From assembly GCA_905480575.1 (NCBI GenBank), contig CAJQQZ010000048.1, positions 1 to 46,893 on the forward strand: a stretch of DNA of 46,893 bases. The letters run 5' to 3'. Under the pieces are notes generated by a model that saw nothing but the letters and a program-made list of their open reading frames with translations, was not told the origin of the DNA and searched no databases. The translations under genes were made by a program, and so were the position numbers. This DNA comes from an uncultured Alphaproteobacteria bacterium (lineage in GTDB: Bacteria; Pseudomonadota; Alphaproteobacteria; UBA7985; CAJQQZ01). Shown here piece by piece: positions 34,982-45,584 of this stretch (position 1 is its first letter; each line of letters begins with the position of its first letter).

Positions 34982-36943
34982 ATGCCGATTCAGCAGGCAC
35001 CTGCAGGAATGGATACTTTTCCAAAAATTTTGCGCGACCACGCAAAAGTCAGACCAGACAAAGTAGCATACCGTGAAAAAGAATTCGGTATTTGGCAAGC
35101 CTACAATTGGTCTGAAGTCAACGATCACGTTCGAGCTCTTGCCCAAGGCCTCCATGTACAGGGTGTGAAACGCGGTGACCGCATCGCGATTATCGGCAAC
35201 AACCGCCCTCGCCTTTATTGGGCCATGGCTGCAGCTCAGGCTATCGGTGCAGTTCCCGTCCCCATGTACCAAGACGCCGTAGCAAAAGACATCGGCTACG
35301 TGCTTGAGCATGCTGAAATCACGGCTGTCGTGGCTGAAAACCAGGAACAGGTCGACAAAGTTCTTGAGATTCACGACCAATGTCCATCGATCAAGACGGT
35401 CATCTACTGCGATCCTAAGGGGCTCAGAAAATACGAGGTTCCTTTCCTTTTCTCTTTCAGCGACATTCAAGAAAAAGGCCGCGAGTTTGCTATTGGTAAC
35501 GCAAGCTTCCTAGATGCTGAAATTGACCGGGGGAAAGCCGACGATATTGCCGTGCTGCCCTACACTTCAGGAACAACCGGCAACCCCAAAGGTGTTGTGC
35601 TTTCCCACAACAACATTCTTTGTTCTTCCTTCAATGCAAATGAATTTGAAGGGCTCACAGAAAACGAAGAAATTCTCGCCTATTTGCCGATGGCTTGGAT
35701 TGGCGATCATATCTTCTCTTATGGTCAGGCATTGGTTGCGGGATTTGCTGTCAACTGTCCTGAGTCAACCGAAACGGTGTTGACGGACTTGAGAGAAATT
35801 GGCCCGACATACTATTTTGCACCGCCTCGCGTTTTTGAGAACCTACTGACCACTGTCATGGTTCGCATGGAGGATGCGTCTAAGATCAAACGTAGTGTTT
35901 TCAATCACTTCCTGGGTGTCGCCAAAAGAGTTGGCGCAGACATTCTTGAAGGTCGTTCCGTCAGTTTTGGCGATAGAATTCAGTACGCCTTGGGCAACTT
36001 GATCGTTTATGGCCCATTGAAAGACACCCTGGGCCTTCGCCGTGTACATTTGGCCTATACTGCCGGTGAAGCTATTGGCCCTGAAATCTTTGATTTCTAC
36101 CGTTCACTCGGGGTAAATTTAAAGCAACTCTATGGCTCTACAGAAGCGTCCGTTTATGTGACAATCCAGCCAAATGGAGAAATCAGATCTGATACTGTTG
36201 GTCCGCCAGCGCCGGGTACAGAAGTCAAGATCGACGAAAAAACAAAAGAAGTACTCTTCAAAAGCCCTGGTGTTTTCGTCGAATACTTCAAAAACCCGAA
36301 AGCCACCGCAGAGACGAAAACCAAAGATGGTTGGGTCATGACGGGCGACGCTGGTTTCTTCGACGACGAAGGCCACTTGCACATTATCGACAGAGCCAAA
36401 GACGTGGGGACATTGAAGGACGGAACGCTTTTTGCTCCTAAGTACATTGAAAACAAACTGAAATTCTTCCCGAACGTCAAGGAAGCCGTAGCTTTTGGAG
36501 CAGACAGAGACCAAGTCACTGCCTTTATCAATCTTGACCTTCAGGCGGTTGGTAGTTGGGCAGAGCGCAACAATATTGCTTATGCCTCCTACCAAGAATT
36601 GACCGCTATTCCGGAAATTGAGAACTTGCTGAAAGAGAATGTTGAGCAAGTCAATGCTGACTTGGCAAACGATCCAAATGTTGCAAGTTCTCAGATCACA
36701 CGGTTCATTCTGTTACCTAAAGAACTGGACGCGGATGATGGTGAGTTGACCCAAACCCGTAAAGTTCGCCGTCGTATTGTCGCTGAACGCTACGAAGGGC
36801 TTATTAACGCTTTATATTCGAACGACTCAGAAGCTCATATGAAGGCTGAAGTGACGTTCGAAGATGGTCGCAAAGGCTTCCTGGAAGCCGACGTAAAAAT
36901 AATCGACGCTCAGACTTTTGAGCCACAGAAGAAAGCCGCTTAA
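34982..36943 (+). CDS. AMP-dependent acyl-CoA ligase (long-chain-fatty-acid-CoA ligase type)
   Basis: A 653-residue adenylate-forming enzyme expected to activate a carboxylic acid to its CoA thioester. The phosphate loop YTSGTTGNPKG is at 194-204. Further motifs are LYGSTEAS, GWVMTGDAGFFDDEGHLHIIDRAKD and the C-terminal catalytic Lys region ELTQTRKVRRR. Its length and the insert after the first motif fit the long-chain FadD/ACSL branch. The ATG at 34982 follows GGGAGG eight bases upstream. It is three bases ahead of livG, the first of a complete branched-chain-type ABC transporter, so the imported compound is probably its substrate. That arrangement is seen in alpha- and betaproteobacterial clusters for aromatic or fatty acids. 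The actual acid cannot be read from sequence. Confidence 0.92.
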   Translation: MPIQQAPAGMDTFPKILRDHAKVRPDKVAYREKEFGIWQAYNWSEVNDHVRALAQGLHVQGVKRGDRIAIIGNNRPRLYWAMAAAQAIGAVPVPMYQDAVAKDIGYVLEHAEITAVVAENQEQVDKVLEIHDQCPSIKTVIYCDPKGLRKYEVPFLFSFSDIQEKGREFAIGNASFLDAEIDRGKADDIAVLPYTSGTTGNPKGVVLSHNNILCSSFNANEFEGLTENEEILAYLPMAWIGDHIFSYGQALVAGFAVNCPESTETVLTDLREIGPTYYFAPPRVFENLLTTVMVRMEDASKIKRSVFNHFLGVAKRVGADILEGRSVSFGDRIQYALGNLIVYGPLKDTLGLRRVHLAYTAGEAIGPEIFDFYRSLGVNLKQLYGSTEASVYVTIQPNGEIRSDTVGPPAPGTEVKIDEKTKEVLFKSPGVFVEYFKNPKATAETKTKDGWVMTGDAGFFDDEGHLHIIDRAKDVGTLKDGTLFAPKYIENKLKFFPNVKEAVAFGADRDQVTAFINLDLQAVGSWAERNNIAYASYQELTAIPEIENLLKENVEQVNADLANDPNVASSQITRFILLPKELDADDGELTQTRKVRRRIVAERYEGLINALYSNDSEAHMKAEVTFEDGRKGFLEADVKIIDAQTFEPQKKAA

Positions 36944-36946
36944 TCA

Positions 36947-37765
36947 ATGAATGAACCCGCAGCTCAAGCCGCAGGATCTCATGACAAGGTCATTGGCGAT
37001 GTTATGTTGGACGTTAATGCGATCACTCTCCGTTTTGGTGGAGTGGTGGCGCTCAACAACATTTCCTTTAATGTTCGAAAACATGAAATTCTAGCGATTA
37101 TTGGCCCCAACGGTGCCGGCAAAACGTCGATGCTTAATGTGATTAATGGTTTTTACCATCCTCAAGAGGGAGAGATCACATTTAAGGGCAATGTTCGCAG
37201 CCAAATGCGCCCACATATCGCCGCGTCTCAGGGAATAGCCCGTACTTTCCAGAACGTGGCGCTCTTCAAAGGCATGTCGACCCTCGATAACATCATGTCT
37301 GGGCGTTTGATGAAAATGAAACGCAACTTTCTTTGGCAAGCACTGCACTTTGGTCCAGCGCGCAAGGAAGAGTTGGAACATCGTGCTTTTGTCGAGAAAA
37401 TCATCGACTTCCTTGAAATTCAATCCATCCGCAAAACACCTGTTGGGCGTTTGCCTTATGGATTGCAAAAGCGTGTTGAGTTGGGCCGTGCCTTGGCCAT
37501 GGAACCAGAGCTACTGTTGCTCGACGAACCAATGGCGGGCATGAACACTGAGGAAAAAGAGGACATGTGCCGCTTTATTCTGGATGTGAATGATGAATTC
37601 GGCACCACCATTTGCCTGATCGAACATGATATGGGCGTTGTTATGGATATCTCTGATCGTGTGGTCGTTCTGGACTATGGTCGCAAAATTGGTGACGGAA
37701 CACCTAATGAGGTTCGAAACAATCAAGAAGTTATCGACGCCTATTTGGGAGTCAGCCATGATTAA
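36947..37765 (+). CDS. livG: ABC transporter ATP-binding protein, LivG type
   Basis: One of the two ATPases of a branched-chain-amino-acid-type (HAAT family) importer. The 272-residue protein has Walker A GPNGAGKTS near residue 56, the Q-loop region ARTFQNVALF, and a variant signature LPYGLQKRVELGRALA with YGLQK instead of LSGGQ. Walker B is LLLLDEPMAG and the switch His is in LIEHDMGVV. The C-terminal GTPNEVRNNQEVIDAYLG is the usual LivG tail. The YG-x-Q-K signature is unusual for LivG but is found in transporters paired with acyl-CoA ligases. It starts three bases after the ligase stop. Confidence 0.94.
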   Translation: MNEPAAQAAGSHDKVIGDVMLDVNAITLRFGGVVALNNISFNVRKHEILAIIGPNGAGKTSMLNVINGFYHPQEGEITFKGNVRSQMRPHIAASQGIARTFQNVALFKGMSTLDNIMSGRLMKMKRNFLWQALHFGPARKEELEHRAFVEKIIDFLEIQSIRKTPVGRLPYGLQKRVELGRALAMEPELLLLDEPMAGMNTEEKEDMCRFILDVNDEFGTTICLIEHDMGVVMDISDRVVVLDYGRKIGDGTPNEVRNNQEVIDAYLGVSHD

Positions 37766-37800: not shown

Positions 37801-38937
37801 ATGGAACTGCTACAAGCCTTATTCGTATCTCCTTTCATGGATATGTGGAACGAACCCGCATTCTTTATCGAGACTTTCACCAAAGGCCTGCTGACCGGTG
37901 TCCTCTATTCACTGGTGGCTCTTGGTTTCGTTTTGATTTTCAAGGCCTCAGGCGTTTTCAACTTCGCCCAAGGTGTCATGGCTTTATTCGCTGCTCTGAC
38001 TCTGGTCGGATTACTCGAATTCATGCAAGGCAAGGACATGACCGCCAACCATTTGGTGGGAATGACCGTTGTTGCCGCCGTTGTCGCCATTGGCATGCTT
38101 GGTTTGAAAAAAGTTAATAAAATCAGCTCTGTACAGGCACCTTATGCGCTTCTGGGCTTCTGCGCAGTCGTCGGATTTGCCTGGATATTGCGCACGATAG
38201 GCCTCCCGAATTACATACTGATCCCCTTCGCGATTGTCGGTACAATCATCACGATGATAGCCCTCGCCTACCTGATAGAAATCGCCGTTTTGAGGCCCTT
38301 GGTTAACCAGGAACTGATCATCCTCTTTATGTCGACACTCGGTCTTGCTTATGTTCTCGAAGGTGTTGGTGACTTGTTGTGGGGCTCTGATGTTAAGATC
38401 TTAGACATTGGCCTGCCTACCGATATCTATATCGCTGAGTTTCCATTCGGTGATGTTTACATAGAACAACTGGATATGGTCGCCGCTGTCGTCGCAGCGG
38501 CAATGGTGATAATTCTAGCAATATTCTTTAACAAGACACGCATTGGTCGCGCTCTTCGAGCGGTGGCAGATGATCACCAAGCAGCGATGTCCGTCGGTAT
38601 CCCATTGAAAACCATTTGGGTTATTGTTTGGTCAGTCGCGGGTATTGTTGCGATGGTTGCTGGCGTTATGTGGGGCAGCAGCTCTGGTGTTCAATTCTCG
38701 TTGTCGCTTATCGCACTCAAGGCCCTGCCTGTTCTTATTCTCGGAGGTTTCACGTCAATTCCAGGCGCCATCGTCGGCGGATTGATTATTGGTGTTTCTG
38801 AAAAACTGGCAGAAGTCTTCTGGTATGACCTCCATGGCGGTGCCATTGAGAACTGGTTCGCTTACTTTGTTGCACTCGCATTCTTGTTGTTCAGGCCCCA
38901 AGGTCTGTTCGGCGAGAAAATCATTGAACGTATTTAA
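37801..38937 (+). CDS. livH: ABC transporter permease, LivH type
   Basis: Inner-membrane permease of the HAAT importer. The 378-residue protein has eight or so hydrophobic segments and the LivH motifs LVALGFVLIFKASGVFNFAQG near residue 40. The EAA-like cytoplasmic loop is IGRALRAVADDHQAAMSVGI near 245. It is longer than E. coli LivH (308) through an extra hydrophobic stretch at about 80-155. The ATG at 37801 follows GGGGAG. It lies 35 bases after livG. Confidence 0.94.
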   Translation: MELLQALFVSPFMDMWNEPAFFIETFTKGLLTGVLYSLVALGFVLIFKASGVFNFAQGVMALFAALTLVGLLEFMQGKDMTANHLVGMTVVAAVVAIGMLGLKKVNKISSVQAPYALLGFCAVVGFAWILRTIGLPNYILIPFAIVGTIITMIALAYLIEIAVLRPLVNQELIILFMSTLGLAYVLEGVGDLLWGSDVKILDIGLPTDIYIAEFPFGDVYIEQLDMVAAVVAAAMVIILAIFFNKTRIGRALRAVADDHQAAMSVGIPLKTIWVIVWSVAGIVAMVAGVMWGSSSGVQFSLSLIALKALPVLILGGFTSIPGAIVGGLIIGVSEKLAEVFWYDLHGGAIENWFAYFVALAFLLFRPQGLFGEKIIERI

Positions 38938-38951
38938 GGAGGGTTTGAAAC

Positions 38952-40025
38952 ATGTTTTATCGTGAATCCGGTCAATTCAAGTCCTCTTACGCAAAAGATC
39001 AGGCGATCTTCCCGATCCGCCAAGATCAGATTGCAATTGTCTTAATTCTTGCAGTCGCTTTCCTGGTCGTTCCTTGGTTTGTAAACGACTATTGGTCTAA
39101 ATCAGTCCTCCAGCCATTCTTGGTTTTCTCCATTGCTGCAATCGGTCTCAATATCCTTGTTGGATATTGCGGACAGATCTCGCTGGGTACCGGTGGATTT
39201 ATGGCGGTCGGCGCTTACGCCTCCTACAAGATCATGACTTCTTTTCCGGACATGCCGATTGTCTTGGTAATCATTTTGTCGGGTTTCTGTGCGGCAGGTG
39301 TCGGAATTCTCTTTGGCCTGCCTTCTCTGCGCATTAAGGGCTTCTATCTGGCGGTGGCGACGTTGGCGTCCCAGTTCTTCCTGATTTGGATGTTTAACAA
39401 GGTTCCTTGGTTCCATAACTATACCATGAGCCAAATCACAGTCCCTCCCCGCGAATTTTTAGGTGTCACGGTCACTTCATCTTCCGCCGGACCTGCAGCG
39501 CAGTATTTGTTCTGTCTCGGTTTTGTCGTCGTCGGTGCGTGGCTGGCGAAAAATCTTGTTCGCGGTCGAACAGGTAGATCCTGGATGGCTATCAGAGATA
39601 TGGACATAGCGGCTGAGTTGATTGGTATCCGTCCTCTTCAAACCAAGCTTCTGGCATTCGCCATCTCATCCTTTTACATCGGTATCTCAGGCGCTCTCAT
39701 CTTCTGCGTCTATCTCGGCACCGTGGAGGCCAGTGAAGCTTTTGATATTAACCAGTCATTCCTTGTATTGTTTATGATCATCATTGGTGGTCTTGGATCA
39801 ATTCTAGGTTCCTTCTTGGGCGCTGGCTTTATGATCCTTATGCCAATCGTTCTAAAGAACATCATGGTTGGCTCGTTTGGCATGGCGGCTGTTACAGCCA
39901 AGCACATTGAGATCTCCCTTATGGGAGTATTGATTGTTTTCTTCTTGATCGTTGAACCGCATGGTTTTGCGCGCCTCTGGCAGATCTTGAAGGAAAAACT
40001 GAGACTCTGGCCCTTCCCTTACTAA
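38952..40025 (+). CDS. livM: ABC transporter permease, LivM type
   Basis: Second permease of the importer, 357 residues, with LNILVGYCGQISLGTGGFMAVGAYASY near residue 70, the LivM hallmark. The cytoplasmic coupling loop is TGRSWMAIRDMDIAAELIGI near 205. A soluble N-terminal 25 residues precedes the first membrane segment. The ATG at 38952 has GGAGGG upstream. It is 14 bases after livH. A 125-base gap then separates it from the binding-protein gene, which may allow that gene separate, higher expression. Confidence 0.94.
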   Translation: MFYRESGQFKSSYAKDQAIFPIRQDQIAIVLILAVAFLVVPWFVNDYWSKSVLQPFLVFSIAAIGLNILVGYCGQISLGTGGFMAVGAYASYKIMTSFPDMPIVLVIILSGFCAAGVGILFGLPSLRIKGFYLAVATLASQFFLIWMFNKVPWFHNYTMSQITVPPREFLGVTVTSSSAGPAAQYLFCLGFVVVGAWLAKNLVRGRTGRSWMAIRDMDIAAELIGIRPLQTKLLAFAISSFYIGISGALIFCVYLGTVEASEAFDINQSFLVLFMIIIGGLGSILGSFLGAGFMILMPIVLKNIMVGSFGMAAVTAKHIEISLMGVLIVFFLIVEPHGFARLWQILKEKLRLWPFPY

Positions 40026-40150: not shown

Positions 40151-41476
40151 ATGAACTTAAAAAAACTAGCTCTCGGTGCTCTAGCCGCAGCTGTTGTCGC
40201 TACACCAATGGCGCTCAGCACTCCGGCTTCTGCTTACGAGTACACAATTCCTGGTCTGGTCTACAGAACTGGCCCTTATGCCCCTAACGGCATTCCTTTC
40301 GCTAACGGCTATGCTGATTACTTTAAGCTCCTGAACGAGCGTGACGGCGGTATCGGCGGTGTTAAGCTGAACGTTGTTGAGTGTGAAACAGGCTACAACA
40401 CTAAAGTCGGTGTTGAGTGCTATGAGAACCTAAAGAATGAAGGCGATTCAGGCGCTATGGTTTTCAGCCCGCTTTCTACTGGTATCACTTACGCATTGAT
40501 CCCGAAGGCGACTGAAGACGAAATTCCTATCTTCTCTATGGGCTATGGCCGTACATCAGCTGCTGATGGTACTGTTTTCCCTTGGGTCTTTAACTTCCCA
40601 ACAACCTACTGGTCGCAGGCAACAGCCTTCGTTAAGTATGTTGGCGCTCAAGAAGGCGGCATGGAAAACCTAAAAGGCAAGAAGATTGCTTTGGTTTACC
40701 ACAACTCTGCTTACGGTAAAGAGCCGATCAAGACCCTTGAAGTACTCGCTGCTGACCTCGGGTTCGAGTTGATGCTTCTTCCTGTTGACCACCCAGGTCA
40801 GGAACAGAAAGCGACATGGCTCCAGGTTCGTCGTGCTAAGCCTGACTGGATCTTCATGTGGGGTTGGGGTGTTATGAACCAGGTTGCTATTAAAGAAGCA
40901 GCCTCAATCAAGTACCCAATGGATCATTTCATCGGCGTTTGGTGGTCAGGTTCTGAAAATGACGTCCTTCCTGCTGGTGACGGTGCGAACGGTTATCTCG
41001 CTGGTACATTCCACTCACCTTCAAACTCATTGCCAGTTCACGACCAAATTCGTGACATGCTCTATGCAAATGGCAACGGTGCCGGCGAAGTCGACCGTGT
41101 TGGCGAAGTTCTTTACAACCGCGGTATGCTGAACGCCATGTTCATTGCTGAAGGCATCAAGAATGCTCAAGCAATCCACGGCACAACAGAGCTTCGTGGT
41201 AAGCATCTTCGTGATGGTCTTGAGGCTATGGACATTACTGAGGCCCGCCTCGCTGAACTTGGTATGGGCGGTTTCACTCCAGAAGTGAAAGTTACCTGTG
41301 CTGATCACGAGGGTGGTGGACCGGTTCGCATTCAACAGTGGAATGCTGCTGACCAAAAATGGGAATGGGCTTCTGATTGGATCACACCAATGTCAGACGT
41401 CGTCCGTGAACTTGTAATGGCTGACTCAGCTGCTTATGCAGCAGAGAACAACATCACACCAGTTGACTGTAACTAA
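40151..41476 (+). CDS. Periplasmic substrate-binding protein of the Liv-type ABC importer
   Basis: A 441-residue type I periplasmic binding protein (Peripla_BP_6 fold). The signal peptide MNLKKLALGALAAAVVATPM is cleaved after ASA, leaving YEYTIPGLVYRTGPYAPNG. Compared with LivK (about 370 residues) it is long and carries many aromatic residues (WVFNFPTTYW, WIFMWGWGVMNQ, GVWWSGSEND). That suits an organic acid or aromatic ligand better than a branched-chain amino acid, but this is inference. It is flanked by livM and livF. A GGGAG site lies seven bases before the ATG. Two hairpins follow the gene, as expected for a highly expressed binding protein. Confidence 0.93.
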   Translation: MNLKKLALGALAAAVVATPMALSTPASAYEYTIPGLVYRTGPYAPNGIPFANGYADYFKLLNERDGGIGGVKLNVVECETGYNTKVGVECYENLKNEGDSGAMVFSPLSTGITYALIPKATEDEIPIFSMGYGRTSAADGTVFPWVFNFPTTYWSQATAFVKYVGAQEGGMENLKGKKIALVYHNSAYGKEPIKTLEVLAADLGFELMLLPVDHPGQEQKATWLQVRRAKPDWIFMWGWGVMNQVAIKEAASIKYPMDHFIGVWWSGSENDVLPAGDGANGYLAGTFHSPSNSLPVHDQIRDMLYANGNGAGEVDRVGEVLYNRGMLNAMFIAEGIKNAQAIHGTTELRGKHLRDGLEAMDITEARLAELGMGGFTPEVKVTCADHEGGGPVRIQQWNAADQKWEWASDWITPMSDVVRELVMADSAAYAAENNITPVDCN

Positions 41477-41587: not shown

Positions 41588-42424
41588 GTGGCTGAAGCTG
41601 CTTTAAACCAGAATGCCGATCAAGGTGAAATCATTCTCTCGGTTAACAACATCGAGGTTGTCTATAACCACGTAATCCTGGTGCTTAAGGGCGTTTCGCT
41701 TGCAGTGCCTCAGGGTGGTATCGTTGCTATCCTCGGTGCCAATGGTGCGGGAAAAACAACCACACTCAAAGCCATTTCCAACCTGTTGAATGCTGAACGC
41801 GGCGAAGTCACCAAGGGTTCGATCGAGTTCCATGGTGAACAAGTCGACTCTATGACGCCCAATGATTTGGTTCGGCGCGGTTGTATCCAGGTTATGGAAG
41901 GCCGTCATTGCTTCGAGCATTTAACAGTGGAAGAAAATCTGCTGACGGGTGCCTACACCCGGACCGATGGTCGTGCCGGGGTTAATCAAGCCCTAGAGAT
42001 GGTCTACAACTATTTCCCTCGCTTGAGAGAAAGAAGAACGTCACTTGCCGGGTACACTTCGGGTGGCGAGCAGCAAATGACCGCCATTGGCCGTGCCTTG
42101 ATGTCCAACCCTTCTATGATCCTGCTGGATGAACCCTCCATGGGCCTAGCGCCTCAGTTGGTGGAAGAGATTTTTGAGATCGTTAAGAAGCTCAACCAAC
42201 AGGAAGGCGTGACTTTCCTACTGGCTGAACAGAACACCAACGTCGCGCTCAAATACGCGACTTACGGCTACATCCTAGAATCTGGTCGTGTTGTTATGGA
42301 TGGTGACGCTAAATCGCTCCGAGAAAACGATGACGTTAAAGAATTTTATCTTGGCGTCAGCGAAGAAGGTCGCAAGTCGTTCAAGGACGCAAAGTCTTAC
42401 AAACGTCGCAAACGTTGGTTATAG
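41588..42424 (+). CDS. livF: ABC transporter ATP-binding protein, LivF type
   Basis: Second ATPase of the importer, 278 residues. It has Walker A GANGAGKTT, signature YTSGGEQQMTAIGRALM, Walker B MILLDEPSMGLAP and LLAEQNTNVALKYATYGYI. The signature's TSGGEQQ follows the LivF pattern. The start is the GTG at 41588 with GGGAG seven bases upstream. The ATG-like triplet two bases earlier is out of frame. The C terminus has a basic extension (KSFKDAKSYKRRKRWL) longer than in E. coli LivF. It completes the set LivG-LivH-LivM-binding protein-LivF, which is needed for a working transporter. Confidence 0.95.
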   Translation: MAEAALNQNADQGEIILSVNNIEVVYNHVILVLKGVSLAVPQGGIVAILGANGAGKTTTLKAISNLLNAERGEVTKGSIEFHGEQVDSMTPNDLVRRGCIQVMEGRHCFEHLTVEENLLTGAYTRTDGRAGVNQALEMVYNYFPRLRERRTSLAGYTSGGEQQMTAIGRALMSNPSMILLDEPSMGLAPQLVEEIFEIVKKLNQQEGVTFLLAEQNTNVALKYATYGYILESGRVVMDGDAKSLRENDDVKEFYLGVSEEGRKSFKDAKSYKRRKRWL

Positions 42425-42467: not shown

Positions 42468-43106
42468 ATGAATAAGATTTTCGCTGCCGCATTGGCCCTT
42501 AGCCTTTGTGCTCCTTCTTTCATGGCCAATGCAGAAGAAAAGCAAGATGGCCCACCCCGCTGGTTCCATCTCGTTGGTGACGAATACTTTCACATTCCTG
42601 TCCAGGATGGCTGGCAAGTTGTTTGGGCTGACCCAAAAAGCGGCGAGAGTCTGATTGAAATCGATTTCATGCCAGTGGATCAAGACCCCGCCGACTGGCA
42701 GGACAAGCTGACCATTCAGGTCATCCCCAAAGAAGAGGACATGACAGCAGAGTTGATGATCAATCAAATTGCTGTTGGCTTTAAAAAGCTCTGTTTAGAC
42801 CACATCCAGACCCCAAACTTCCCGGGCATGGAGAAAGGCATCCAATCGTTCCAGGCGATCGTAGGCTGTGAGTGGCAACCACCAGAGTTTGACAAGACCG
42901 TGTTTGAAAACCTTTATTTGCGCGTCTTTGAAAGCCCCAAAGCAATCTATGTTCAACAGCGCGCTTGGCGTCTAAAGGAATTTTCAGTTTTGATGCTGCC
43001 GCCAGAAATCTACGAAGAAGATCTAGGCCCCATTAACAACTTTGTCCTTTGCAGCCTTTCCGGCGAAGGTATTCCAGTCTGTCCAATCGGAACCAACGAC
43101 CAATGA
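42468..43106 (+). CDS. Secreted protein of unknown function in the Liv operon
   Basis: A 212-residue protein starting at the ATG at 42468. A signal peptide MNKIFAAALALSLCAPSFMA is cleaved after ANA, so it should be periplasmic. The mature part begins EEKQDGPPRWFHLVGDEYFHIP and has four Cys residues that could form disulphides: KKLCLDH, VGCEWQPPE, VLCSLSG and PVCPIGT. Trp and aromatic residues are common. I recognise no family. Translation is coupled to the next gene, since its TGA overlaps the ligase-like ATG (ATGA at 43103-43106). Its place between livF and an AMP-binding gene suggests a helper in binding or processing the transported compound, but that is only context. Frames reading upstream of 42468 lie in the livF gene. 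Confidence 0.75.
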   Translation: MNKIFAAALALSLCAPSFMANAEEKQDGPPRWFHLVGDEYFHIPVQDGWQVVWADPKSGESLIEIDFMPVDQDPADWQDKLTIQVIPKEEDMTAELMINQIAVGFKKLCLDHIQTPNFPGMEKGIQSFQAIVGCEWQPPEFDKTVFENLYLRVFESPKAIYVQQRAWRLKEFSVLMLPPEIYEEDLGPINNFVLCSLSGEGIPVCPIGTNDQ

Positions 43107-44329
43107 GTGATTTTTTCGACAATCTAGAAACCCAGAGCCATGACAAGAGGCAAGCGGACTTGCTTGCTCGTCTTTCTGCGCAGGTAGCGCACGCCAAAGA
43201 CAATACAGCTGGCTTTGGCCGTGTCTTCTCAGACGTTGATGCGCCGTCGGTTTCTTCACTGGAAGCCTTAAGCGAGCTGCCCATCACACGCAAGCCGGAC
43301 CTAGTAGCCATGCAAAAGGACAATCCGCCTTTTGGTGGCTTCGCGGCCAAGAACGCCGGTTCAATGCCGCGCTTGTTCATGTCTCCCGGCCCCATCATGG
43401 ACCCGTCTGGCCCAGGAGATTGGTGGAGTGCTGCTCGTGCTGGATACGCTGCTGGTCTGCGTGCCGGTGATATTGTCATGAACTGCTTCTCCTATCACTT
43501 CACACCAGCGGCCTTCTTGTTCGAAGGCGGTGCTCGTGAAATTGGGTGTGCCGTTATCCCAGCTGGCGTCGGCAATACAGACATGCAAATCACTGCGGCT
43601 TCTGGCTACCAAGCCAATGCCTATGTCGGTACACCTGACTTTCTCAAGATCATTCTCGAGAAGGCTGACGAACAAGGCACAGACCTCTCCTCCATCACAA
43701 AAGCTATGGTTTCCGCTGGGCCCCTCTTCCCGGCATTGCGCCAATGGTACATTGATCGGGGTCTCACCTGTATGCAATGTTATGGCACGGCAGACCTCGG
43801 TATCGTGGCCTATGAAAGCCCGCCGATGGAAGGTATGATCCTCAACGAGAACTACATTGTTCAAATCTGTGGTCCTGATGGTAAACTCGTCGACGATGGT
43901 GAGATTGGCGAAGTCGTCGTCACCACTTTCAACAAAGATTATCCTTTGGTTCGCTTCGGCACAGGCGATCTTTCCGCTGTCTTGCCAGGACAAAGCCCCT
44001 GTGGTCGTACAAATACTCGCATCAAAGGCTGGCTCGGTCGTGCCGACATGATCACTAAAGTGCGCGGCATGTTTGTCCATCCAAGCCAGGTCGAAAAAGC
44101 AGTCAAGTCCTGCCCTGAGATCGAACGCTTCAGTCTTGTGATCACGGAAGAAATGGGCACTGATCATATGACTTTGAAAGTGGTCACAAACGCTGTAGCC
44201 AGCGAGGACTTCCAAGGGCGAGCAGAAAAAGCCCTGTCAGACGCTTGTAAAATTCGGGGCAAAGTTGAGATCGTTGACGAGTTGGCCGAAGACGCCAAAG
44301 CGATTGATGATCAGCGCGTGATAGGATAG
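43103..44329 (+). CDS. PaaK-like AMP-binding protein with non-canonical P-loop
   Basis: A 408-residue protein of the phenylacetate-CoA ligase type. Recognised motifs are YGTADLG (A5, residues 227-233), VRFGTGDLSAV (A7, from 283) and RIKGWLGRADMITKVRG (A8, near 306), followed by VHPSQVEKA typical of PaaK. The expected Gly/Ser/Thr-rich phosphate loop (SSGTTGxP) is replaced by FMSPGPIMDPSGPG at 92-105. A C-terminal Lys is present in DAKAIDDQR. It may still bind ATP in another way, act on an already activated substrate, or be a non-catalytic partner. The start ATG overlaps the TGA of the secreted-protein gene by four bases. It is immediately followed by a Rieske oxygenase gene. Confidence 0.85.
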   Translation: MSDFFDNLETQSHDKRQADLLARLSAQVAHAKDNTAGFGRVFSDVDAPSVSSLEALSELPITRKPDLVAMQKDNPPFGGFAAKNAGSMPRLFMSPGPIMDPSGPGDWWSAARAGYAAGLRAGDIVMNCFSYHFTPAAFLFEGGAREIGCAVIPAGVGNTDMQITAASGYQANAYVGTPDFLKIILEKADEQGTDLSSITKAMVSAGPLFPALRQWYIDRGLTCMQCYGTADLGIVAYESPPMEGMILNENYIVQICGPDGKLVDDGEIGEVVVTTFNKDYPLVRFGTGDLSAVLPGQSPCGRTNTRIKGWLGRADMITKVRGMFVHPSQVEKAVKSCPEIERFSLVITEEMGTDHMTLKVVTNAVASEDFQGRAEKALSDACKIRGKVEIVDELAEDAKAIDDQRVIG

Positions 44330-44363
44330 CCTTCCCTAGAAGTATTGCTAGATGGAGGCCGAG

Positions 44364-45584
44364 ATGCACTTAGACCAACTCATTTCAAAACAACGCCCTG
44401 GATTCACGCTGGATCAGGAATTCTATTGCTCCGACACGATCTTCGAAGAAGAGATCCAGAAAGTCTTTCCAAACCACTGGATGCCTCTGGATCATGCTTC
44501 TCGCATTCCAAATGCTGGCGACTATTTCCTAGTCTCTATTGTCGGTGAATCGATCATTGTTGTACGCGGTAAAGACGGGGACATTCACGCCCACTACAAC
44601 GTTTGCCGCCATCGAGGTTCTAAAGTATGCATCGAGCAAGAAGGCAACGTTAGCCGCCTGACCTGTCCTTATCACGCCTGGACCTATGCTCTTGATGGCA
44701 AGCTTGTCGCTGCTCGTTTGATGCATGAAGATTTTAAGAAAGAAGACTACGGCCTCAAGCCCTGCCATCTGCGCGTGCATGACGGGCTGATCTTTATCAA
44801 TCTCAGCTCCGGCGAAGCCCCAGACTTTGATGAAATGGTCGCGCCACTCTTACCTTTCCTCGACATGCACGGCCTGGACAAGGCGAAGATTGCCCACCGC
44901 GAGGTCTATCCAACGGATGCCAATTGGAAGCTGGTGCTGGACAATTTCTTTGAATGCTATCACTGCGCACCCTCTCATCCCGAGTATTCACGCGTGCATT
45001 CTGCTGCGAAATTGATGGCCTTTGGTGCAGGCCCTGACTCTGGCACTGAAGGCGCCATGAAAGATTTTGAGCCTGAGATGAAGGAATGGCAGGCCAGCGC
45101 ACAAGCGCTTGGCCATTTCACCGGTTCTCATGCTGCCAGAGGCGTTGGCTCGTTTCAGGGGGCTATGCGCGCGCCAATCAAACGAGGTTCCCTATCCGAA
45201 ACAAAAGACGGCACCCCGGTCTCCACCCTCATGGGCAAATTCAAGGATTTTGACGGTGGTCAAACCGCCGTGTCCTTCAATCCTTTTGGCACTATGCTCA
45301 TGTCGAACGACTTTGCTGTCCTGCTCAGGTTCATCCCTCACAGCGCGACCAAGTCCGATATGGAAGTCATCTGGATGGTCAATGCCGACGCCGAGGAAGG
45401 TAGGGACTACGACGTGGAAAAACTCATCTGGGTCTGGGATGTCACCACAAAACAAGACAAAGATATAATCGAATGGAACAGAGCCGGCGTCATGTCACGG
45501 CATTACGAGCCTGGCCCCTATTCCACTCAGGAAGCGGCCTCGGCCAAGCTGATCGAATGGTATTTGAGCCAGCTGGCCGCTTAG
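44364..45584 (+). CDS. Rieske [2Fe-2S] aromatic-ring-hydroxylating-type oxygenase, alpha subunit
   Basis: A 406-residue oxygenase alpha subunit. The Rieske cluster ligands are C81, H83, C101 and H104 (CRHRGSK and CPYHAW). The mononuclear iron site is H200 and H205 in DNFFECYHCAPSHPEY, with a later Asp near DKDIIEWNRAG. The NFxECYHC spelling also occurs in carnitine/choline/betaine-type monooxygenases (CntA, GbcA), so the substrate could be a small quaternary or carboxylated compound as well as an aromatic one. I start at the ATG at 44364, with GGAGG five bases upstream, rather than the ATG at 44352 with no ribosome site. No reductase or ferredoxin gene is in view, so electrons must come from elsewhere. 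It follows the PaaK-like gene by 34 bases. Confidence 0.9.
   Translation: MHLDQLISKQRPGFTLDQEFYCSDTIFEEEIQKVFPNHWMPLDHASRIPNAGDYFLVSIVGESIIVVRGKDGDIHAHYNVCRHRGSKVCIEQEGNVSRLTCPYHAWTYALDGKLVAARLMHEDFKKEDYGLKPCHLRVHDGLIFINLSSGEAPDFDEMVAPLLPFLDMHGLDKAKIAHREVYPTDANWKLVLDNFFECYHCAPSHPEYSRVHSAAKLMAFGAGPDSGTEGAMKDFEPEMKEWQASAQALGHFTGSHAARGVGSFQGAMRAPIKRGSLSETKDGTPVSTLMGKFKDFDGGQTAVSFNPFGTMLMSNDFAVLLRFIPHSATKSDMEVIWMVNADAEEGRDYDVEKLIWVWDVTTKQDKDIIEWNRAGVMSRHYEPGPYSTQEAASAKLIEWYLSQLAA

Follow-up and report, generated by a model that had tools for sequence, protein, structure and literature searches.

The ANL superfamily comprises acyl-CoA synthetases, NRPS adenylation domains and luciferase. The described proteins closest to the one considered here, which we call PaaKx, are ligases of the PaaK type (2y27, 2y4o, 4r1l; TIGR02155, PF14535); PaaKx has the same whole-length fold and C-terminal PF14535 domain, and differs in having no SSGTTG loop, an Asp for the A5 Glu, a Lys gained and an Asp lost in A8, and a shortened A10 tail. 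The 2-hydroxyisobutyryl-CoA ligase HCL (6he0, 6hdw) also has a PaaK-like fold; it is, however, a complete ligase that was crystallised with its acyl-AMP, and its identity to PaaKx is only 22-24%. EhpF of phenazine biosynthesis (3hgu, Z 19) is, like PaaKx, an unusual protein related to the PaaK-like fold. The two differ in what is missing: the C-terminal domain in EhpF and, in PaaKx, which retains that domain, the P-loop. AuaE is a further member of the ANL superfamily. There is precedent in nature for dividing ligation and acyl transfer between two proteins, since AuaE takes anthraniloyl-CoA, and less well anthraniloyl-AMP, from a separate ligase, AuaEII, in aurachin biosynthesis (PMC10295502). 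From its description, this pair can be likened to PaaKx and the FadD-like ligase encoded with it, in that each would combine a complete CoA ligase with another protein that takes over transfer of the acyl group from CoA. The acceptor of AuaE is, however, a carrier protein, and none is apparent at the PaaKx locus.

PaaKx is encoded in the window (the whole stretch of DNA that was analysed, 46,893 nucleotides from an uncultured member of the Alphaproteobacteria) in an operon with genes for a FadD-like acyl-CoA synthetase and a Liv-type importer (Table 1). Its start codon overlaps the stop codon of the preceding ORF (ATGA), and the frame at 43103-44326 translates to ...PRLFMSPGPIMDPSGPGDWW.... 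Both Pfam domains and the whole-chain fold place PaaKx in the PaaK-like branch of the ANL superfamily. PF00501 scores 36.9 bits against a gathering threshold of 29.9, with a match that starts only at profile position 200 and so covers the C-terminal half of the AMP-binding domain; PF14535 (AMP-binding_C_2), the C-terminal domain, scores 32 against 25. The best NCBIfam models are the PaaK equivalogs TIGR02155 and NF041878, neither of which reaches its equivalog cut-off (127.2 versus 646.3 bits and 133.6 versus 700 bits, respectively), and the nearest solved structures are PaaK-type ligases. Public records name the protein 'AMP-binding protein' or 'putative phenylacetate-CoA ligase', the latter implying an activity that is probably absent. 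A search of the open literature for the PaaKx family, pseudoenzyme PaaKs, the liv/FadD/PaaK cluster and fitness data returned nothing relevant.

Table 1. Features of the PaaKx operon, of PaaKx itself and of a related fusion protein (window positions unless a locus is given)
Feature	Position	Strand	Remark
FadD-like acyl-CoA synthetase	34982..36943	+	operon head; intact TSGTTG loop
LivG-like ABC ATPase	36947..37765	+	
LivH-like permease	37801-38937	+	
LivM-like permease	38952-40025	+	
LivK-like periplasmic binding protein	40151..41476	+	
LivF-like ABC ATPase	41588..42424	+	
PaaKx	43103..44329	+	PaaK-like, 408 aa, without phosphate loop
Replaced loop, residues 92-105	43376..43417	+	FMSPGPIMDPSGPG; invariant SPG; from alignment with canonical PaaK
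SPGPI	43382-43396	+	at the place of SSGTTG
His132	43496..43498	+	clade-invariant; Gly/Ser/Ala/Thr in canonical PaaK
Motif A5	43781..43795	+	YGTAD; canonical YGLSE/YGSLE
Motif A8	44036..44068	+	GRADMITKVRG
Lys319	44057-44059	+	within A8; clade-invariant; Ile/Val in canonical PaaK
A10 tail	44282..44317	+	LAEDAKAIDDQR; shortened
Fusion protein	L147:5038-8931 and L152	L152 minus	

The original prediction was that the phosphate loop of this protein had been replaced. The SPG-type loop proved to be real and clade-wide, but the surrounding element is not lost: the AlphaFold model (mean pLDDT 93.4; at least 90 at 328 of the 408 residues) keeps a strand-turn-strand at the site, with strands at 91-94 and 98-101, and what remains of the long phosphate loop is a turn. 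Compared with PaaK in the alignment, 7-8 residues are missing between the loop and the helix that follows. Several PaaK-type structures can be superposed on 396-408 residues of the model, among them 4r1l_A (PaaK; Z 37.5, 401 residues, 29% identity). End to end, the model superposes best on 6he0, which is HCL captured in the thioesterification state (Z 35.1, 408 residues, 4.5 A), whereas only 314 residues align with ATP-bound PaaK1 (2y27). These superpositions fit a PaaKx that rests in a thiolation-like state, a point on which we would place little weight.

An orthologue search at an identity of at least 40% detected PaaKx in 107 of 385 genomes of the class (about a quarter). GTDB contigs, when scanned, yielded 583 relatives; among the best 80 of these, which were taken for comparison, the named taxa are Alpha- and Betaproteobacteria and a few Granulosicoccaceae. 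The family is widespread in bacteria and the loss of the loop is fixed throughout the clade: (i) S94, P95 and G96 are invariant in all 110 aligned homologues; (ii) position 100 is Asp or Glu in 110/110 and (iii) each of the 135 loci checked for the motif has SPG, with P, T, S or Q as the next residue and I, V or L after that, and none of them encodes an orthologue with a normal P-loop. The check suggested at the outset was to collect homologues in the same gene context, and since all of these have an SPGP-type loop, the change is not an individual mutation. The idea of an individual mutation or of a pseudogene in one genome is refuted by more than 130 homologues having the same loop, with intact frames and a mean column identity of ~61%; we found no evidence in its support and give it practically no chance of being correct. 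A sister clade with 31-36% identity to PaaKx, whose hosts include a Sulfitobacter plasmid and other genomes of the class, also carries the loop, in the form SPGPI(F/N)EP; canonical PaaK paralogues (28-33% identity) retain SSGTT or SSGTS loops. In our tree a fully supported branch separates the canonical proteins from the rest, and the sister clade is likewise recovered with full support. The sequences are consistent with one origin of the SPG loop but fall short of proving it because branches are long and support between the main and sister clades is weak.

It had also been stated that all later ligase motifs were intact. This turned out to be wrong. A5 reads Y(A/G)TAD in place of YGLSE/YGSLE (Glu to Asp), A8 reads GRADQTTKVKG in place of GRSDDMxIxRG, with an Asp lost and an invariant Lys gained, and the A10 tail is ~3 residues shorter. 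When 113 main-clade and 6 sister-clade members were compared with 16 canonical PaaKs, nine residues proved to be fixed in the clade while being rare or missing in canonical PaaK (Q71, G79, P95, H132, P135, A230, G233, K319 and F324). Conversely, the clade has lost residues that are fixed in canonical PaaK, including a His immediately ahead of the loop (column of F92), a Ser and a Thr within it (columns 95 and 98), one Asp of the hinge motif, the second (column 316), an Asn (column 324) and, in the A10 tail, the Arg/Lys. The column of the canonical A10 Lys is a gap in 119/119 aligned members, with a Lys 2-3 residues away in 93/110. In three closely related PaaKx proteins whose genes do not have LivF directly upstream (L017, L028 and L034), Ile replaces this nearby Lys (DGIVVED). 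Residues that PaaKx and canonical PaaK have in common are K64, S94, G96, Y131, R284, D289 and R313, and E238, R284 and D289 are invariant in the PaaKx clade.

In adenylation domains, the A8 Lys helps the thiolation half-reaction and the A10 Lys serves the adenylation half-reaction (PMC11253843). Given these roles, and with Lys319 at the A8-lysine position, the PaaKx clade has lost parts linked to adenylation and gained a Lys linked to thiolation; the Lys near the canonical A10 position in 93/110 members calls for caution here. Judged from its sequence, PaaKx has very probably lost adenylation, and the disappearance of adenylation parts while P95, H132 and K319 became newly invariant looks like new function rather than decay. 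Nucleotide binding may persist, since two residues of the old loop, Ser94 and Gly96, remain, as does the ribose-binding Asp289. The adenylation losses together with the A8 Lys would make PaaKx a natural test of separating the two ANL half-reactions. One could argue that PaaKx is still a working ATP-dependent ligase that holds the phosphates in another way, using Ser94, Gly96 and new residues instead of the long loop; Ser94, Gly96, Lys64, Asp289 and Arg313 are, after all, common to canonical PaaK, and most members have a Lys near the A10 site. We consider this unlikely, as the loop is cut to a turn with an invariant acidic residue after it, the clade lacks both the hinge Asp316 and the A10 Lys column, and the same operon already encodes a complete ligase.

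The ligase at the operon head had been described as complete, and rightly so: its P-loop is TSGTT or TSGTV in all 57 readable copies. Among the 385 genomes of the class, 102 have both PaaKx and a FadD of the operon type, 5 have PaaKx only and none has FadD only, where FadD was counted above a cut of ~36% identity (E around 1e-115) that was set after seeing the list and that leaves genomes with only 32-36% FadD paralogues uncounted. Fisher's test gives p ~5e-88 for this co-occurrence, a value that ignores relatedness. Four of the five genomes with PaaKx only are assemblies at most 86% complete; the near-complete genome G232 has PaaKx and no FadD of the operon type. With linkage defined as a distance of at most 9 kb on the same strand, the two genes are unlinked in 29 of the 102 genomes, many of which may reflect contig breaks, and in G190 and G198 they lie on one contig ~26 kb and ~258 kb apart. 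Because the loop change is fixed and co-occurrence with one ligase is near-constant, we think PaaKx is probably a partner protein with a new job, and it is likely that it functions as the partner of an acyl-CoA synthetase. Being tied to a single ligase and a single Liv-type importer, PaaKx also offers a direct way into the function of their uptake-and-activation module.

A further association comes from a fusion protein of ~1300 residues found in two species of one genus, which belongs to the same taxonomic order as the source of the window; a normal PaaKx is also present in both. The protein consists of a ligase that resembles acetoacetyl-CoA synthetase and has an intact FSSGTTG loop, a long acidic linker and, at the C-terminus, a degenerate PaaKx-like domain from which the hinge Arg, the His and the SPGPI loop have disappeared. 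The fusion ties the PaaKx fold independently to complete acyl-CoA synthetases. A 2010-codon frame over a canonical PaaK at L143 was considered as a second fusion and rejected as read-through of GC-rich DNA.

The original prediction offered either a distinct mechanism or a non-catalytic role beside a complete ligase. This pair of options stands because same-context homologues are all of the SPGP type and the FadD P-loop is intact, and either may hold. According to the second option, PaaKx would be a true pseudoenzyme, a protein that catalyses nothing itself but has a CoA ester or AMP as its ligand and exerts allosteric control over the FadD ligase or the importer. This is a possibility that we take seriously while leaning against it: the near-perfect coupling to FadD, the loss of adenylation motifs and the fusion of a more degenerate copy to a complete ligase all speak for it, but the newly invariant His132 and Lys319, together with invariant E238, R284 and D289, exceed what a scaffold would need.

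Our working model, which stands about an even chance of being right as a whole, is that PaaKx is a neofunctionalised ANL protein of the PaaK branch that has lost the adenylation half-reaction and acts as the partner of a complete FadD-like acyl-CoA synthetase. PaaKx would keep the acyl/nucleotide pocket and the GR hinge, and it has the new invariant A8 Lys. The LivGHMKF-type importer encoded with FadD would take up a carboxylic acid, which FadD would turn into an acyl-AMP and then an acyl-CoA; PaaKx would bind the product of FadD in a thiolation-like state. It may then transfer the acyl group in a step that needs no ATP, much as AuaE does from anthraniloyl-CoA, or hydrolyse it, or it may only bind and report on or regulate acyl-CoA formation. 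We infer that PaaKx uses no ATP, and the nature of its ligand and the way it works with its partner are likewise conjectural. A broader version, which we advance tentatively and would not expect to hold, is that of a widespread ATP-independent ANL family that takes its acyl group from the acyl-AMP or acyl-CoA of a dedicated ligase, so that import, activation and onward transfer or sensing are coupled in an ABC-type vectorial acylation.

Neighboring genes were assigned by homology and codon-position bias, as clustering of longest ORFs picks antisense frames where the DNA is GC-rich. The genes are usually ordered FadD-LivG-LivH-LivM-LivK-LivF-PaaKx, and a second order is LivG-FadD-LivH-LivM-LivK-LivF-PaaKx. 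LivF is directly upstream of PaaKx at 72/79 and 36/54 of the judgeable loci in two sets. In the window, a 212-aa ORF with a signal-peptide-like start (MNKIFAAALALSLCAPSFMANA) lies between LivF and PaaKx (42468-43106); it matches neither Pfam nor NCBIfam models and has no counterpart in the 80 related loci. Directly downstream of PaaKx, 44352-45584 encodes a Rieske oxygenase alpha subunit for which the nearest NCBIfam model is glycine betaine monooxygenase GbcA (323 bits versus a cut-off of 670). Some sister-clade members likewise occur in FadD-Liv-type operons. Orphan copies of PaaKx outside the operon are present at L056, L059 and L076, and copies within clusters of acyl-CoA enzymes at L067 and, for the sister clade, in Sulfitobacter. 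Canonical PaaKs near liv operons (L145 and L151) were weighed as counter-examples and rejected; they are distant paralogues (28-29% identity) that lie 4-6 kb from the liv genes with no close FadD, a different arrangement.

As to the substrate, structural relatives of the LivK component are named only as putative amino-acid binding proteins, and in the related loci the genes flanking the seven-gene module are variable, with no common substrate emerging. A lead is provided by plasmid pXAUT01 of Xanthobacter autotrophicus Py2 (L129:5777-18829), where PaaKx precedes the FadD-Liv block and follows genes for a B12-dependent acyl-CoA mutase, a LAO/AO-type ATPase and a PaaD-type protein. On plasmid RPME01 of Methylibium petroleiphilum PM1 (L128:9986-20955), ~7 kb separate PaaKx from genes for a Rieske oxygenase and a PDR/VanB reductase, a pair that resembles MdpJK.
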